DNA from: Henriciella sp.
GTDB lineage: Bacteria; Pseudomonadota; Alphaproteobacteria; Caulobacterales; Hyphomonadaceae
NCBI RefSeq assembly: GCF_029937755.1
Contig: NZ_JAPYPG010000001.1
Span: forward strand, 744,001 to 808,000
Reading direction: 5' to 3'
DNA: 64,000 nt
The position numbers and the translations under genes are program-made. Shown here one piece after another: positions 29,577 to 45,191 of the stretch. The notes beneath the pieces are model-generated. The model saw only the letters and a program-made list of their open reading frames with translations. It was not told where the DNA came from and did not search any database. Positions within the stretch are counted from its first letter, which is position 1; each line of letters opens with the position of its first letter.

Positions 29577-29613
29577 TGTTCACCTTTGATCCCTAATTAA
29601 GGGGGAACAGCGT

Positions 29614-29628
29614 TTAAGAGAAGATTAA
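29614..29628. promoter_or_regulatory. CtrA-type box upstream of the ntrZ-like gene
   Basis: TTAA-GAGAAGA-TTAA matches the full CtrA consensus TTAA-N7-TTAA with exact spacing. It lies 38 bp upstream of the ntrZ-like start and just touches the stop codon of the porin gene. A further TTAA is at 29597-29600. A chance match is possible in this AT-rich gap. Confidence 0.45.
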
Positions 29629-37172: not shown

Positions 37173-37785
37173 GTTTCACCTCCATGATTTTCAGAATGAC
37201 CCCGGTCTCACTTGTCCGACTCGGAATCGCCTCATAGGCGAGAGTCCAGTATTCCTGCGCTTGCGTCAATTCTTCTCGCCAGTGTTCCCCCTTGAAAAAG
37301 AAAGCTGTTGCGCCGCGGTCAATCCAGGGCGCCGCGTAGCTGATCAACTTCGACAAGGGGGCCAGGGCGCGCGCTGTAATAAAATCAGCGCGTTCCCCGT
37401 TAACCGCCTCGATGCGCTTGTTTATTGCACGTGCCGGCAGGCCGAGCTCTGAAATAACCGCGCTGAGAAAGGCGCACTTCTTTCCGACCGATTCGACCAT
37501 ACTGACATGGCCATCACCGCCGACAGCCTCGCAAGCCAGAACAATTCCGGGAAAGCCGGCGCCGGAGCCAATATCGACAATGCGTGAGCCGTGACCCATC
37601 AGGGGCAGAAGTTGGGCACTGTCATAGACATGCCGCGCCCAGATTTGATCCATCTCCCTGGGGCCAATCAGGTTCATGCGCTGGCGCCATTCACCGAGCA
37701 TGCTGACATAGCGCTCCAGCCGGAGCTGTGTTTCACGTGAAACACCGAGCGCCGAAAGCGCGTCCTTCGCTTCGTTTTCCGTCAT
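37165..37785 (-). CDS. rsmG: 16S rRNA G527 N7-methyltransferase RsmG (GidB)
   Basis: A 206-residue SAM-dependent methyltransferase. The SAM-binding motif VDIGSGAGFPGIVLA and the preceding NLIGPREMDQIWARHVYDS block identify RsmG. FITARALAPLSKL is the catalytic-region strand. A perfect parS (37729-37744) is embedded near the 5' end and encodes GVSRET. It is followed by parA with an 8-bp overlap and is preceded by mnmG with a 2-bp gap. Confidence 0.96.
   Translation of the reverse strand: MTENEAKDALSALGVSRETQLRLERYVSMLGEWRQRMNLIGPREMDQIWARHVYDSAQLLPLMGHGSRIVDIGSGAGFPGIVLACEAVGGDGHVSMVESVGKKCAFLSAVISELGLPARAINKRIEAVNGERADFITARALAPLSKLISYAAPWIDRGATAFFFKGEHWREELTQAQEYWTLAYEAIPSRTSETGVILKIMEVKRV
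37729..37744. other. parS site 1, perfect (in rsmG)
   Basis: TGTTTCACGTGAAACA, identical to the consensus ParB-binding 16-mer, within rsmG and 557 bp upstream of the parA start. Confidence 0.97.
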
Positions 37786-37787
37786 AC

Positions 37788-39662
37788 CTATCCCGCTGCG
37801 CGCTGAGGCCGCCGCCGCTTAACATGGGCAAGCAAGGTCAATAGGGCGCCCGGCGTCACACCTTCGATGCGGGCCGCCTGGCCAAGCGTCGCCGGGCGTA
37901 CAGTCTCAAGCTTGGACCGGACTTCATTAGACAGGCCACCCACTCGGCCAAAGTCCATGTCCGCGGGGATTTCCAAATTCTCGTCACGACGCAATTGTTC
38001 CACGTCTGCTTTTTGCCGCTCGAGGTATCCCGCATAGGTCGCTTCGATTGCAAGCTGCTTGCGATGATCCCCCGAGATGTCAGCAACCTCCGGAAAAGCG
38101 CTGGCGATATCGCTGAACGAAATATCGGGGTAAGCGAGATAATCCCAGGCGCTCCGTCTCTGGCCATCCTGATTGACCTTCCAGCCCTGTTGCGCCGCCT
38201 CATTGGGCGTCATCACGAGAGACCCGAGAAGGGCCCGTCCTTTTTCCAGACCCTGGTGTTTCACGTGAAACATTTCGGCGCGTGGTGTTTTGACCAGCCC
38301 CAGCGCTACCCCCCGGCCAGTCAGTCGCTGGTCTGCATTGTCAGCGCGAAGCGCCAGACGATACTCGGCGCGTGACGTAAACATACGATACGGCTCACTC
38401 ACGCCATGGGTTACGAGATCATCGATAAGCACGCCGATATAGGCTTCTGCCCGATCAAATACCGCAGCTTTTTCGTCACGAACAGACCGTGCTGCATTCA
38501 GTCCGGCAACGAGACCCTGAGCCCCCGCCTCCTCATAGCCTGTCGTTCCGTTGATCTGCCCCGCAAGGAAAAGGCCTGGCATACGTTTGACTTCCAGGCC
38601 ATGATTCAGTGCCCGCGGATCGACATAATCATATTCGATTGCATAGCCGGGCTGAACAATCTGCACCCTTTCGAGGCCCTCGATCGTACGGATGAAGGCT
38701 TCCTGGACGTCCGTTGGAAGAGATGTCGAAATGCCATTTGGATAGACCGTGTCATCGTCCAGCCCTTCGGGCTCCAGGAAAATCTGGTGGCGTGTCTTGT
38801 CCGCAAAGCGATGAACCTTGTCCTCGATTGAGGGGCAGTAGCGCGGGCCCTTTCCGGCGATCGCCCCCGAATAAACTGCGGAGCGACCAAGATTTTCAGC
38901 AATGATGCGATGGGTCTCTTCATTCGTATACGTGATACCGCATGAAATCTGCGGAACATCGATCCGTTCGCTCAGGAAGGAGAAGGGCACAGGGCTCTCA
39001 TCGGCGGGCTGCATTTCAAGGCGGTCCCACTCGATGGTCTTACCGTCCAACCGTGCCGGCGTCCCTGTTTTCAGGCGCCCCATCGGAAGGTCCAACCGGT
39101 AGAGCCGATCGGACAGACCGATCGCCGGCTTCTCGCCGATACGGCCTGCTTCAATCCGCTCTTCCCCGCGATGGATAATGCCTTTCAGGAAGGTACCTGT
39201 TGTAATGACGACAGCAGCGGCGCGGTAGTGCTCACCCGTCTGACCGATCACACCAGCAGTGCGGCTATTCTCTACAATCAGATCTTCAACGCCGTCTTCG
39301 ATCAGCGTCAGATTTTCATAATTCGCCAGCTCCGATTGCATCGCCTGACGATAGAGCTTGCGGTCGATCTGCGCGCGCGGTCCCCAAACGGCTGGCCCTT
39401 TGGAGCGGTTGAGCAGACGGAACTGGATGCCAGCCTTGTCGGCCATTCTGGCCATAACCCCGTCAAGCGCATCAATCTCGCGAACGAGATGGCCCTTGCC
39501 GAGACCGCCAATCGCCGGGTTGCAGGACATCTCGCCGATTGTCGAAAGCTTGTGCGTGATCAGAGCGGTACGGGCGCCGGTGCGCGCAGCCGCCGTCGCG
39601 GCTTCGCAGCCAGCATGTCCGCCGCCAACAACAATTACATCAAAATCAAATGCGCCTGGCAT
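37788..39662 (-). CDS. mnmG: tRNA uridine-5-carboxymethylaminomethyl modification enzyme MnmG
   Basis: A 624-residue FAD enzyme that with MnmE makes cmnm5U34 in tRNA. The N-terminal FAD motif is [14 protein letters not shown]; further signatures are [38 protein letters not shown] and the [15 protein letters not shown] block. A perfect parS (38257-38272) forces the peptide MFHVKH. Partner mnmE is directly upstream on the same strand. Confidence 0.97.
38257..38272. other. parS site 2, perfect (in mnmG)
   Basis: TGTTTCACGTGAAACA, identical to consensus. On the coding strand it encodes MFHVKH. Confidence 0.97.
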
Positions 39663-39714
39663 TCGTCGCTCCGCTCGTCTGCATTTGAGTGCTAGGGGCG
39701 CCGCTATACATCAT

Positions 39715-39741
39715 CTCCGCCTCCAAACACAGGGGGCGGAG
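39715..39741 (-). terminator. Strong GC hairpin directly after mnmE, no U tract
   Basis: CTCCGCCTCC (39715-39724) pairs with GGGGGCGGAG (39732-39741) as a ten-base stem with one G-T wobble and a 7-nt loop. It abuts the mnmE stop and precedes mnmG by about 50 bp. Without a T run on the minus side it may be a pause site, RNA-stability element or Rho-assisted stop rather than a full terminator. Confidence 0.4.
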
Positions 39742-41064
39742 TCATTTCCCGATACAGAAGGAAGAAAAGACAGCCCCTAGAATTTCTTCGACACCGATCT
39801 CACCAATCAGTCCAGACAATTGCCGGGAGGCCAGACGGACATCTTCGGCGACCAGTTCCGCCCCGCCGCCGTGCTCAAGAAGGTTAAGAGCATGTTTCAC
39901 GTGAAACAGTGCGGATTCCAGAGCCAGCCTGTGGCGCCGCCGTGTAATCAGGGGCGCTCCAGCAGATCCGGCCCTGTTGCGGATAACCTCGGCAATGCGC
40001 GCCTCAATCTCCGAAAACCCCTCGCCCGTGAGGGCCGACATCGTCAGAACACCCTCCGGCCAGGATCCGGACTGAGCAAGATCGCGCTTGTTCACGATCA
40101 GGAGGTCATCCGCCGGACAGTCCGAAAAGTCCGGATTCTCGTCGGCTGATCGCAGCTGAATTCGCAAATCCGCCGAGGCCGCCCGTTCCTGGGCGCGGCG
40201 CACGCCTTCCGCCTCGATCTGATCGGCCGCTTCGCGCAGCCCGGCCGTATCAGCAACCCAGGCAATCTGGCCACCAATCTTCAGACGAACCTCAACCACA
40301 TCACGCGTTGTCCCCGGAATATCCGAAACGATAGCGGCTTCCCGGCGAGCCAACCGGTTAAGCAGCGAGGATTTTCCAGCATTCGGCGGCCCGACAATCG
40401 CAATGTGAAACCCCTCGCGAATCCGTTCACCGACTTCATCATCCGCGAGTGCTCTCTCGAGGCTTTCAGCGATCAGCCGCAGCGCCGCCTCGACGGGCCC
40501 ACCTGTCTCATCCGGGGCATCTTCCTCGTCCGGGAAGTCGATGCTCACTTCGAGCAAGGCCAACACATCCACCAGGCCCGCGCGCCATTCCGCATACTGA
40601 CGCGACAGCCGGCCCTCCAGCTGGTCGAGTGCCAGCGATTTCTGGGCGCGCGTTTCCGCGTCGATCAGGTCTGCAACACCTTCCGCCTCGACCAGGTCCA
40701 TTCGCCCGTTTTCAAAAGCGCGGCGTGTGAATTCACCCGGTTCGGCCAGACGTGCGCCCAGCGCGCAGATCGTATCCAGCGCATGGTCGATAACCGCCGC
40801 GCCGCCGTGGAGATAGAGCTCGGCTGTATCCTCGCCCGTATAGGAGTTGGGGCCCGGCATGAACACGGCCAGGCCCTCATCGATTGTGTCACGTGAAACG
40901 TCGAGGAATCGGCCAAACACGGCGCGGCGCGGCTTTGGCACACCCCGTTCTAGAACAGACGCGCAAATCTCACGGACTTTCGGCCCACTGATCCGGACAA
41001 TCGCAATTGCGGATGGAGGCGGCCCGGAAGCGAGCGCGCAGATCGTGTCGCGCGCATCGGTCAT
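39742..41064 (-). CDS. mnmE: tRNA modification GTPase MnmE
   Basis: A 440-residue GTPase. An N-terminal formyl-THF-binding domain (SGPKVREI, GPNSYTGEDTAELYLHGG) is followed by a helical domain split by the G domain. The P-loop is GPPNAGKSSLLN, with DIPGTTRD and DTAGLRE, and the C-terminus is the catalytic CIGK. The protein carries two parS footprints: ALFHVKHAL (perfect site) and DVSRDT (imperfect site). It forms a complex with MnmG, encoded next. Confidence 0.97.
   Translation of the reverse strand: MTDARDTICALASGPPPSAIAIVRISGPKVREICASVLERGVPKPRRAVFGRFLDVSRDTIDEGLAVFMPGPNSYTGEDTAELYLHGGAAVIDHALDTICALGARLAEPGEFTRRAFENGRMDLVEAEGVADLIDAETRAQKSLALDQLEGRLSRQYAEWRAGLVDVLALLEVSIDFPDEEDAPDETGGPVEAALRLIAESLERALADDEVGERIREGFHIAIVGPPNAGKSSLLNRLARREAAIVSDIPGTTRDVVEVRLKIGGQIAWVADTAGLREAADQIEAEGVRRAQERAASADLRIQLRSADENPDFSDCPADDLLIVNKRDLAQSGSWPEGVLTMSALTGEGFSEIEARIAEVIRNRAGSAGAPLITRRRHRLALESALFHVKHALNLLEHGGGAELVAEDVRLASRQLSGLIGEIGVEEILGAVFSSFCIGK
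39893..39908. other. parS site 3, perfect (in mnmE)
   Basis: TGTTTCACGTGAAACA, identical to consensus; encodes LFHVKH in the C-terminal part of MnmE. Confidence 0.97.
40885..40900. other. parS-like site 4 (in mnmE), two mismatches
   Basis: TGTGTCACGTGAAACG differs from consensus at positions 4 and 16. The coding strand reads as VSRDT. The TCACGTGAAAC core is intact, so ParB binding is plausible but weaker. Confidence 0.65.
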
Positions 41065-41067
41065 GGC

Positions 41068-42366
41068 CTAGTTCTTCATGGCCTCGAAGAATTCGTCATT
41101 GGTCTTGGTCTGACGAAGCTTGTCGAGCAGGAAGTCCACGGCATCCGAGGTGCCCATCGGATTGAGGATACGGCGCAGGATATAGATCTTCTGCAGCTGT
41201 TCCTTCGGCGTGATGAGCTCTTCCTTGCGGGTACCTGACTTCATGATGTCGATGGCCGGGAAGGTCCGCTTGTCGGCGATCTTCCGGTCGAGGACGATTT
41301 CCGAGTTACCCGTGCCCTTGAACTCTTCGAAAATCACTTCGTCCATCCGCGAGCCGGTATCGATCAGGGCTGTCGCGATAATTGTCAGCGAACCGCCGCC
41401 TTCAATATTCCGCGCGGCGCCAAAGAAGCGCTTCGGACGTTGAAGCGCATTGGCGTCGACACCGCCAGTCAGCACCTTGCCGGAACTCGGAACGGTCGTG
41501 TTGTAGGCACGGCCCAGACGCGTGATGGAGTCGAGCAGGATAACCACATCGCGGCCATGCTCGGCCAGGCGTTTGGCCTTTTCGATCACCATTTCAGCAA
41601 CAGCCACGTGGCGGGTCGCCGGCTCATCGAAGGTCGAGGAAATAACCTCACCCTTCACCGAGCGCTTCATGTCCGTCACTTCTTCCGGGCGCTCATCGAT
41701 CAGCAGGACGATGAGATAGCAGTCCGGGTGATTTTCCTCGATCGAGGCGGCGATGTTCTGGAGAAGAACGGTCTTACCGGTCCGCGGCGGCGCGACGATC
41801 AGGGCGCGCTGGCCCTTGCCGATCGGCGAAACGATGTCGATGACGCGGCCGGAGCGGTCTTTCTTGGTCGGATCCTGGCTCTCCATATGGAGACGCTCTT
41901 CAGGATAAAGCGGAACCAGATTGTCAAAGTGGACTTTCTGGCGTGCCTTTTCCGGTTCCTCGAAATTGATCGAGTTCACGCTCATCAGCGCGAAATAGCG
42001 TTCCCCGTCGCCAGGCTCCTTGATCGGGCCTTCAACGGTATCGCCGGTTTTCAGGCCAGCCTGCTTCAGCAGCTTGGGATTGACATAGATGTCGTCCGGC
42101 CCGGGAAGATAGTTCGACTCCGGCGAGCGCATGAAGCCAAACCCGTCGGTCAGGACTTCGAGAACACCGCGACCGATGATCGTAATATCGCGCTCAGCGA
42201 GTTCCCGGAGGATGGCATAGAGCATGTCCTGCGTTCGGAGCGAGGAAGCGTTCTCAACCTCGAGGCTTTCGGCATAGGCAAGCAGCTCGGTCGGGCTCTT
42301 GGCTTTCAGGTCGCGCAGGTAAACGTGGCGCTGGTCGTTTTCGGATTCGATGACGATGTCGGACAT
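41068..42366 (-). CDS. rho: Transcription termination factor Rho
   Basis: A 432-residue hexameric RNA helicase. ATG 42366 (MSDIVIES) is chosen, as the ORF-track extension is unlike Rho. The RNA-binding OSB fold contains [21 protein letters not shown]. Walker A is [12 protein letters not shown], with [13 protein letters not shown] and [13 protein letters not shown], and the Q/R-loop region is near [15 protein letters not shown]. Rho next to the origin region is common in alphaproteobacteria. The leader between rho and hemJ is 140 bp. Confidence 0.97.
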
Positions 42367-42506
42367 GGATGCTCTGATAGGGTCGTCCGGCCGGTATGGC
42401 TGGAGAAAAGCTGTATCGGGAAGCGCGCCCACCCAGGACGGGCAGCGACTATATGGCCCCGCTTATGATCCTCGAAGGCTCAATCGTCAAGAGTGGAAGT
42501 CCAGCC

Positions 42507-42932
42507 TCAGAAGGGACGGACAATCACCATGATCACAATAACGATCAGGAGGATAAACGGTACCTCGTTCATCATCTTCAGTCGCTTGGCTGAAACGGTT
42601 TCGCCCCGGTCAATTTTCTTGCCAACCGAGATGAAATACCCGTGCAGCCCCGTCAGGATCAGGACAAACAGAAGTTTCACGTGAAACCAGCCCATCTGAA
42701 GAAGCGCCGGATTCATGACCACCATCGCAATCCCCAATACCCAGACCAGGATAACCGATGGTGTCAGAATGATATGGCGAAGCTTGGTCGATGCCGACTT
42801 CATCGTCTCGAAGAGCGGTTCGCCCGGTTTCGATCCAAGCTGATGAAGCTTGTAACGCGGCTGGATCAGCATGCCGGCCATGAAGGCGACGACAAAGATA
42901 AGATGAAGAGCCTTGACCCAGAGATACGCCAT
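42507..42932 (-). CDS. hemJ: Protoporphyrinogen IX oxidase HemJ
   Basis: A 141-residue membrane protein with four hydrophobic helices. The conserved His in ALHLIFVVAFMAGM and the QPRYKLH block match HemJ, as do WVLGIAMVVM and LHGYFI. It oxidises protoporphyrinogen IX to protoporphyrin IX in the inner membrane. It follows hemE on the same strand, giving a small heme module beside the origin. A parS-like core (42673-42688) encodes WFHVKL. Confidence 0.85.
   Translation of the reverse strand: MAYLWVKALHLIFVVAFMAGMLIQPRYKLHQLGSKPGEPLFETMKSASTKLRHIILTPSVILVWVLGIAMVVMNPALLQMGWFHVKLLFVLILTGLHGYFISVGKKIDRGETVSAKRLKMMNEVPFILLIVIVIMVIVRPF
42673..42688. other. parS-like site 5 (in hemJ), core perfect
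   Basis: AGTTTCACGTGAAACC keeps the 14-bp palindromic core GTTTCACGTGAAAC; only the two outermost bases differ from consensus. It is the parS closest to the origin, about 1.3 kb from hemE's start. Confidence 0.85.
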
Positions 42933-42955: not shown

Positions 42956-44002
42956 TTATTTGGCAGCCTGCGCCCGCACGAGCTCCACAACCCGCTCGAC
43001 ATGCTTGATCGGGGTCGTCGGCAGGACGCCATGCCCAAGATTGAAAATGTGCGGGCGGTCCCGATAGGCATCGATCAGTTCGATCACCCGGCGTTCCATC
43101 TTGTCACCGCCGGCCATCAGGAGCAGGGGATCAAGATGGCCCTGGACCGGGAAATGGTCCGGCAATTCACGATTGACGAAAGCGGGCGAGACCGCCGTAT
43201 CGAGACCGACTGCGCTGACACCCGTTACATCAGTATAGGCTGGCAACATGGTTGCTGCCCCACGCGGAAACCCGATAATCGGGACGGTGACGCCGAGCTC
43301 GCGCAGACGAACAACCAGTTTCCGGTTTGGCTCGATGACGATCTGTTCGAACACATCGTCGGCGAGCCCTTCCGCCCAGGATTCGAACATCATCAGGGCA
43401 TCCGCCCCCGCTTCGACCTGTGCGGCCATATAGTGCGCGGTCACTTCGACAAGATCATCCAGTAGAAGATCCAGCCCGGCCGGATTTTCATGCGCCCACA
43501 GGCGCGCGGTATTCTTGTCGGTGCCACCACGGCCTTCGATCGCATAAAGTGCAACGGTCCAGGGCGCGCCGGCAAAGCCGATCAGCGTCTTGGAGGGATC
43601 AAGTTTCTCCTTCACGCGAGAGACTGTTTCGTAAACCGGGGAAAGCCGTTCTTTCGCAGTCTGCACAGGCACCTTGTTCAGGCGACCGCCTGGAGAGACA
43701 GGCTCAACGATTGGGCCAACGCCCTTCTCGAACCGCACACCCTGTCCAAGCGCATCAAGTACGAGAAGAATGTCCGCAAAGAGGATGGCCCCGTCCATGT
43801 CATAGCGCTGGATGGGTTGAAGCGTTGCTTCCGTGGCAAGGGACGGCGTGTAGCAAAAGTCCAGGAAGTTCTTCGCTGTGGACCTGAGCTCCATATATTC
43901 GGGCAGGTGACGTCCTGCCTGCCGCATCATCCAGATGGGAACTGGGTCCCTGCGATTGCCCAGCAGAACATCCAGAAGTGGTTTTTGCGCACTGTCAGCC
44001 AT
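42956..44002 (-). CDS. hemE: Uroporphyrinogen decarboxylase
   Basis: A 348-residue enzyme converting uroporphyrinogen III to coproporphyrinogen III. ATG 44002 (MADSAQKPLLDVL) follows a GAAGGGAG ribosome site; the ORF-track extension runs into the origin region and is not family sequence. Signatures are PIWMMRQAGRHLPEYM, the catalytic Asp region ILLVLDALGQ, FAGAPWTVALYAIEG and the FESWAEGL block. hemE flanking the origin is the Caulobacter arrangement. Confidence 0.97.
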   Translation of the reverse strand: MADSAQKPLLDVLLGNRRDPVPIWMMRQAGRHLPEYMELRSTAKNFLDFCYTPSLATEATLQPIQRYDMDGAILFADILLVLDALGQGVRFEKGVGPIVEPVSPGGRLNKVPVQTAKERLSPVYETVSRVKEKLDPSKTLIGFAGAPWTVALYAIEGRGGTDKNTARLWAHENPAGLDLLLDDLVEVTAHYMAAQVEAGADALMMFESWAEGLADDVFEQIVIEPNRKLVVRLRELGVTVPIIGFPRGAATMLPAYTDVTGVSAVGLDTAVSPAFVNRELPDHFPVQGHLDPLLLMAGGDKMERRVIELIDAYRDRPHIFNLGHGVLPTTPIKHVERVVELVRAQAAK

Positions 44003-44132
44003 CTGGCTCCCTTCAAACTCCAAACTCGAATTTCTGCTCTTATCATTCTTAAGCGCTGGAAATCGTGGACAAACCGTCTCAGGGCGGGTTGTCACCATGA
44101 ATTCCACAGCGAGTCCAATTCTGCGGTGAAAA

Positions 44133-44147
44133 TTTACCTTCTGTTAA
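44133..44147. promoter_or_regulatory. CtrA-type box in oriC, one mismatch
   Basis: TTTA-CCTTCTG-TTAA has correct N7 spacing and one mismatch to TTAA-N7-TTAA. Its centre is 31 bp, about three helical turns, from the next box. Confidence 0.6.
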
Positions 44148-44163
44148 GTCTTTGGAATCGCCG

Positions 44164-44178
44164 TTAATTCCTCGTTAA
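44164..44178. promoter_or_regulatory. CtrA-type box in oriC, perfect
   Basis: TTAA-TTCCTCG-TTAA, exact consensus, followed by CC. A GAATC methylation site (44155-44159) lies between the two boxes. In Caulobacter CtrA bound at such boxes blocks initiation. Confidence 0.75.
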
Positions 44179-44222
44179 CCATTTGAGAGACCCGGCTGAT
44201 TGGAACAAGGCAGGAATTCCGG

Positions 44223-44296
44223 CTGTGGGACTCGTCGGCATGTGGATTTCCGGTGAATGATTGTGGGGAAGATTCTCTACCCACAGCGTGTCCACA
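44223..44296. other. Cluster of DnaA-box-like sequences in oriC
   Basis: TGTGGATTT (44241), CTACCCACA (44277) and GTGTCCACA (44288) each keep the CCACA core and differ from TTATCCACA at two positions. CTGTGGGA (44223) and TTGTGGGGA (44261) resemble the weaker Caulobacter W-type boxes. None is a perfect match, as is usual in Caulobacter-type origins. Confidence 0.55.
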
Positions 44297-44357
44297 GGGG
44301 TTGTCGATTTCCTCAGGACGCTGCAGGTTCGCGCGAACCAAGAGGTCCGGAGAATCG

Positions 44358-45191
44358 ATGCGTCCGAGCATATACTTCAATGTCCATCTCGTCTCCGATT
44401 CTACAGGCGAGACGCTGAATGCTGTGATGCGTGCTGCCGCCGCGCAGTTCGAAAACGTCATCCCGCTAGAACACAATTACTATCTCGTTCGTTCCGAACG
44501 ACAGCTTGAGCGTGTGATGCGCGACATCGAAGCGGCCCCCGGCGTTGTCTGGTTCACCATTTCGGACGAGTCGCTTCGCATGAAGCTCGAGCAGTTCTGC
44601 CGGGCCAACCAGATCCCGATGCTGGCAGTGCTGGATGCGTCCATCCATCTTCTGAGCCGGCATCTTGGCGTGGCCGCGACAGACCGTGTCGCCGGCCAGC
44701 ATGCGCTGAACCAGGAATATTTCGAGCGGATCGAGGCCATCAACTTTGCGCTCGCCCATGATGACGGGCAAAATCTGCAAGGGCTGATACATGCCGATGT
44801 GATTCTTGTCGGGGTGAGCCGGACCTCGAAGACGCCAACCTGTGTCTATCTCGCCAATCGAGGCGTGAAGGCGGGGAATATCCCGCTTGTGCCAGGCGTT
44901 CCGCCGCCGCCTGTCCTGGATGAACTCGACCCGGATAAGGGCCCGCTGGTCATTGGCCTCAAGATCGGCGTGGAGCGGCTGGTCCAGATCCGCAGCCAGC
45001 GCCTGATTGCGCTGAACGAGACCTCGACCACCGACTACACCGATGAAGAAGCCGTGCGCGCCGAGGTGACGCAAGCCAGCCGGCTGTTTCAGCGCAAGAA
45101 GTGGACGATGATCGACGTCTCGCGCCGTAGTGTGGAAGAAACCGCGGCGGCCATCCTCAATAAGCTCAATGAAAAACGAGGCCAGGGATGA
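44358..45191 (+). CDS. PPDK/PEP-synthase regulatory protein (PPSR, DUF299)
   Basis: A 277-residue bifunctional kinase/pyrophosphorylase that in other bacteria controls pyruvate phosphate dikinase or PEP synthetase by Thr phosphorylation. ATG 44358 starts MRPSIYFNVHLVSDSTGETL, the standard beginning; the 35-residue ORF extension lies in the origin. The nucleotide-binding loop is VGVSRTSKTPTCVYLANRG and the SRQR-like C-terminal LVQIRSQRL block follows. It is the RP001-type gene next to the origin and leads an overlapping operon with maf, aroE, coaE and dnaQ. Confidence 0.92.
   Translation: MRPSIYFNVHLVSDSTGETLNAVMRAAAAQFENVIPLEHNYYLVRSERQLERVMRDIEAAPGVVWFTISDESLRMKLEQFCRANQIPMLAVLDASIHLLSRHLGVAATDRVAGQHALNQEYFERIEAINFALAHDDGQNLQGLIHADVILVGVSRTSKTPTCVYLANRGVKAGNIPLVPGVPPPPVLDELDPDKGPLVIGLKIGVERLVQIRSQRLIALNETSTTDYTDEEAVRAEVTQASRLFQRKKWTMIDVSRRSVEETAAAILNKLNEKRGQG

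Follow-up and report, generated by a model that had tools for sequence, protein, structure and literature searches.

A conserved pair of predicted CtrA boxes in the hemE–ppsR gap, the putative chromosomal replication origin of Henriciella

The hemE–ppsR gap and its elements

The window (the whole stretch of 64,000 nucleotides of Henriciella DNA that was analysed) contains hemE and ppsR in divergent orientation, separated by an intergenic gap of 355 bp. Further out, as named from their translations, lie what we take to be mnmE and rho and, across the gap from these, maf, aroE, coaE, dnaQ and secB. The GC content of the gap is 51%, compared with 60% for the window, so that its AT content lies above that of the surroundings. 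The four exact parS sites are the only ones in the genome, and all of them lie 1.3–6.6 kb from the gap; parS sites are likewise found near Cori, the replication origin of Caulobacter. Within the window, the GC skew switches sign close to the gap, and in a complete congeneric chromosome (G017), whose skew was computed from sampled stretches, the cumulative minimum lies at about 1164 kb and the gap at 1181 kb; this skew signal is weak. The order hemE–gap–ppsR was found in all 90 genomes of the family where the locus was taken, with a gap of 344–411 bp. The closest named relatives of the window genome are H. mobilis and H. aquimarina.

In the literature searched, we found nothing relevant on replication origins in Henriciella. 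The identification of the gap as the chromosome replication origin of this Henriciella species is well supported, though not proven, because the hemE/ppsR locus, the parS cluster, the turnover of the skew and the lower GC content all point to it. It places the origin to within 355 bp. We regard it as a Cori-type hemE/COG1806 origin of compact form, which is new for Henriciella, while the control system is already known.

Table 1. Features of the hemE–ppsR region, in positions of the window
Feature	Position	Strand	Basis or remark
hemE–ppsR intergenic gap, predicted chromosomal replication origin	44003..44357	.	gene order, parS cluster, skew turnover, GC
hemE, uroporphyrinogen decarboxylase	42956..44002	-	TIGR01464, 353.8 bits (cut-off 303)
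ppsR / COG1806 / RP001, PPDK/PEP synthase regulator	44358..45191	+	NF003742, 317 bits (cut-off 225)
Four exact parS sites	37730, 38258, 39894, 42674 (span 37730..42687)	.	
Most conserved gap block, cTTATCATTa.TAA	44039..44052	.	
DnaA-box-like TTGTCCACG	44064..44072	-	2 mismatches to TTATCCACA; conserved block
Conserved TTCCACAG element, counted among the DnaA-like flanking elements	44102..44110	+	block at 44100
Predicted CtrA box 1, TTTA-N7-TTAA, one mismatch	44133..44147	.	TTTACCTTCTGTTAA; conserved column set, 29 genomes
GANTC (GAATC) between the boxes	44155..44159	.	one of five GANTC in the gap
Predicted CtrA box 2, perfect TTAA-N7-TTAA, then C	44164..44178	.	TTAATTCCTCGTTAA
DnaA-box-like AAATCCACA	44241..44249	-	2 mismatches
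Tandem DnaA-box-like CTACCCACA and GTGTCCACA (44277, 44288), then conserved AGGGGTTGTC	44277..44296	+	

Two CtrA-type boxes with a GAATC between them, noticed in a preliminary description of this DNA, are exact to the base in sequence and coordinates. Their centres are 31 bp apart, which corresponds to 2.95 helical turns at 10.5 bp per turn. Single boxes with at most one mismatch are about as frequent as expected (5 in the window vs 3.4 expected), and no enrichment of perfect boxes was found across the whole genome (12 vs 19 for the reversed control pattern). A pair, defined as two boxes 15–50 bp apart of which one is perfect, did not arise once when the gap sequence was dinucleotide-shuffled 5,000 times. 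Similarly, 800 kb of G017 outside the origin contain 27 boxes with at most one mismatch, one of them perfect, and no such pair. Thus the pair is unusual, while a lone box is uninformative, and conservation across relatives is stronger evidence than the shuffles. One further pair is present in the window at 29586–29628, where boxes TTGATCCCTAATTAA and TTAAGAGAAGATTAA start at 29586 and 29614 (spacing 28) in a short gap between two minus-strand ORFs; this is possibly a CtrA promoter.

DnaA-like elements lie on both sides of the box pair (44064, 44102, 44241, 44277 and 44288) without overlapping it. DnaA boxes in the gap number five at two mismatches and none perfect, and the gap is the joint-densest 355-bp stretch of the window in this respect; clade B relatives carry a perfect TTATCCACA at the site of the tandem element. 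The most conserved block extends to 44075, with cTTATCATTA.TAAG at a constant distance from GTGGA.AA, and is a candidate for the hemE promoter (-10/-35, minus strand) or for another origin element; the DnaA-box-like element at 44064..44072 might double as the -35 part of this promoter. A match to the IHF consensus (WATCAN5WTR), which is a weak test, was absent from the gap and present in 9 of 90 family gaps; such a site is secondary to position as a mark of a Cori-type origin. The idea that the boxes lie on the AT-richest (unwinding) segment was rejected, as the AT-richest 40 bp are at 44012–44051. To the right of the boxes, almost every one of the 29 genomes in the genus retains a GGAACA element (44201–44206).

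Conservation of the box pair and likeness to known origins

We extracted the gap from 29 Henriciella-group genomes (14 in clade A, which are the closer relatives of the window genome, and 15 in clade B, the second clade of the genus) and from 90 genomes of the family. In the 29-genome alignment, the 16 TTAA columns have a mean identity of 0.914, compared with 0.634 for the other gap columns and 0.628 for the N7 spacers, and the two-box template ranks 1st of 310 placements by conservation. Half-sites that are kept while the N7 spacers drift are the pattern expected of a site read as TTAA-N7-TTAA. Both boxes are present in 25 of the 29 genomes, 31 bp apart in every one, and the remaining four have lost the second box. 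Conservation in close relatives at a fixed spacing was the test that the preliminary description had proposed for itself, and the boxes passed it. We therefore predict from the alignment that the two boxes are conserved CtrA binding sites in Henriciella. Indels may simply be rare in this gap within the genus, which would account for the constant spacing.

Across the family, 68 of 90 gaps contain a box pair, as compared to 10 of 1,800 shuffled gaps (0.6%). Some members have neither box, and the pair is not indispensable because of these members and the four genomes of the genus that lack the second box. The spacings differ by genus: 36 bp in g2, 23 in g3, 32–34 in g4 (labelled Hyphomonas-like, a genus assignment that is inferred), 28 in g7, 36–37 in g8, and 23 or 35 in g9. 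In g7, the boxes are displaced by about 100 bp towards hemE and still form a pair. Expressed in turns of 10.5 bp, some of the family spacings are in phase and others deviate by as much as half a turn (up to 171 degrees). For the evolution of CtrA control of the origin, this would mean that the pair is kept in most of the family while its spacing, its position and the neighbouring methylation sites vary.

The gap was also compared with origins from other Alphaproteobacteria. The origins of Caulobacter (Cori) and Rickettsia are both at the hemE locus (PMC1914354). C. crescentus Cori (hemE–CC_0001) shares with the Henriciella gap the flanking genes, the CtrA box sequence, DnaA-like boxes and GANTC (PMC1914354, PMC4468827, PMC3973325). 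A likeness to Cori in a more compact form was already remarked in the preliminary description. The Henriciella gap has two boxes in 355 bp, the Caulobacter-like gaps five in about 530 bp, and the likeness is true in a stronger sense than was claimed, since the locus itself is the same. Two Caulobacter-like genomes (G188 and G277) have five boxes in a 530-bp gap, in agreement with the published number for Cori. In Cori, each of the two G-boxes lies near a CtrA site or overlaps one (PMC4468827), whereas the Henriciella boxes are central and off the DnaA-like boxes, and the gap has no clear IHF site or G-box. The hemE–RP001 origin of Rickettsia prowazekii has, by description, the same flanking genes and reported CtrA sites (PMC1914354), but it is far more AT-rich than the Henriciella gap, again by description.

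Hyphomonas neptunium belongs to the same family as Henriciella. Its origin is close to hemE, as located by marker-frequency sequencing (PMC6650430). Its CtrA motif is TTAA-N7-TTAAC, and CtrA gives a ChIP-seq signal next to the origin (PMC7200025). Box 2 fits this motif fully, while box 1 has one mismatch in TTAA and G in place of the final C. The Hyphomonas-like gaps of g4 differ from those of Henriciella in their wider spacing and in GANTC sites fused to DnaA-box-like elements, which are nearly absent in Henriciella.

The factors expected to act on such sites are encoded in the genome. The ctrA ortholog is 78% identical to Caulobacter CtrA, and the Caulobacter recognition stretch KIIDVFICKLRKKL is intact in its DNA-binding domain, in a comparison by eye. 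A full-length ORF encodes a CcrM-like methylase (PF01555, 229 bits).

Proposed role of the box pair and rival explanations

We consider it very likely that the gap is the origin and that its two central boxes bind CtrA~P, which represses initiation by blocking DnaA. CtrA binding in Henriciella, repression over any other effect, and the steric step are each likely. At Caulobacter Cori, CtrA excludes DnaA (PMC4468827), and it represses that origin. CtrA~P on the two boxes would cover about 46 bp in the middle of the gap, with weak DnaA-box-like elements grouped to the left and to the right, and DnaA would then be unable to complete an initiation complex across the origin. Motile or new-born cells would thereby be held from starting replication, and dephosphorylation or removal of CtrA would allow DnaA assembly and the onset of replication. 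Because the boxes overlap no DnaA-like box, unlike in Caulobacter, a steric block would need to operate over some distance. The poor DnaA boxes (all with at least two mismatches) and the absent IHF consensus count against this explanation, as do the weak skew signal and the relatives that lack one box or both, and in Caulobacter the removal of CtrA sites from Cori disturbs the cycle only mildly (PMC4468827).

The main rival is that the boxes are CtrA sites selected for control of the divergent hemE (or ppsR) promoter, with secondary effects on replication. Promoters are a common place of CtrA action, and a sigma70-like TTAACA-18-CAGAAT on the minus strand (44147–44118; 9/12, mean of 0.3 in shuffles) overlaps box 1. 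However, no matching -10 was seen by eye in other clade A genomes, a better-conserved candidate hemE promoter (blocks at 44039 and 44064) lies closer to the gene, and the g7 pair, which has moved towards hemE yet is kept, fits a whole origin better than one fixed promoter. We consider this promoter role improbable. It is far less probable still, to the point of being almost negligible, that the boxes are TTAA strings which arose by chance because intergenic DNA is rich in AT: single boxes do occur about as often as expected and the window contains another pair, but the shuffled gaps almost never yield a pair, the AT-richest part of the gap is located elsewhere (44012), and kept half-sites with free spacers in 29 genomes are a pattern that strongly disfavours chance.

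The preliminary description had read the three-turn layout as one that would permit cooperative binding of CtrA and marking of the same patch by CcrM methylation. Spelled out in full, this model has cooperative CtrA dimers on one face of the DNA through three-turn phasing, together with a GANTC whose methylation marks replicated origins. The phasing part holds within Henriciella, where all 25 genomes with both boxes have the same 31 bp, and is no general rule in other genera, with their spacings of 23, 28 and 32–37 bp. Judging from these spacings, three-turn phasing appears to be a property of Henriciella, roughly common to part of g4, and no requirement of the system. The methylation part draws on the presence of a CcrM-like methylase, on a local enrichment of GANTC (five sites in the 355-bp gap vs 1.9 per kb in the window), and on the between-box site itself, which 13 of 14 clade A genomes retain and which belongs to a block with a conservation of 0.943. 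On the other side, this site is found in only 3 of 15 clade B gaps, and C. crescentus with ccrM deleted keeps a normal DNA-content profile, from which the authors concluded that CcrM is dispensable for the control of initiation (PMC3973325). For these two reasons a methylation-mark role for the between-box GANTC is unsupported, and we give the complete proposal little credence. Repression by CtrA across the origin is the reading that we prefer, and the natural spacing variants (23 to 37 bp) are suited to testing whether the helical phasing of CtrA dimers matters.

GANTC sites and DnaA in the family

GANTC sites in the origins of Caulobacter and close relatives have already been reported (PMC3973325). 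We found a mean of 6.46 GANTC in the family gaps vs 1.72 in shuffles, with a maximum of 13 in 394 bp, while the enrichment in eight Caulobacteraceae-like gaps is far weaker (2.88 vs 2.13 expected). In all 37 Hyphomonas-like (g4) genomes, GANTC is fused to a CACA core (GANTCACA) at 4.14 copies per gap vs 0.065 in shuffles; for example, L073 (= G035) has this element at gap positions 113, 194, 256 and 293. These elements align with the DnaA-box-like TCCACAG of Henriciella, where they occur at 0.03 per gap. The 10-mer GANTCACAGG was considered as exclusive to the origin in Hyphomonas and rejected, as G071 has 12 sites of which 2 are in the origin gap; it is enriched only.

The C-terminal domains of DnaA were compared among L197, L199 and L200–L226. 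The signature GGRDHTTV, which Caulobacter retains, is changed to KKKDHTTV in the window genome (L199) and in most of the Henriciella sampled, and to GKRDHTTV or GRRDHTTV in Hyphomonas-like genomes; it is variable elsewhere in the family, with DHTT kept throughout. The altered signature may go with weak, CCACA-only DnaA boxes. GANTC sites concentrated in origins, their fusion to CACA cores and the shifted DnaA signature suggest the idea of a rewired Hyphomonadaceae origin at which initiation responds directly to CcrM methylation, which we hold to be rather unlikely. If true, such an origin would be a counterpart, based on GANTC, of the methylation-controlled origin of E. coli. In G010, two DnaA-like C-terminal domains were found in long open frames (L206 and L226), one with GGRDHTTV and one with a Henriciella-type KKQDHTTV, which may represent contamination or a second dnaA.
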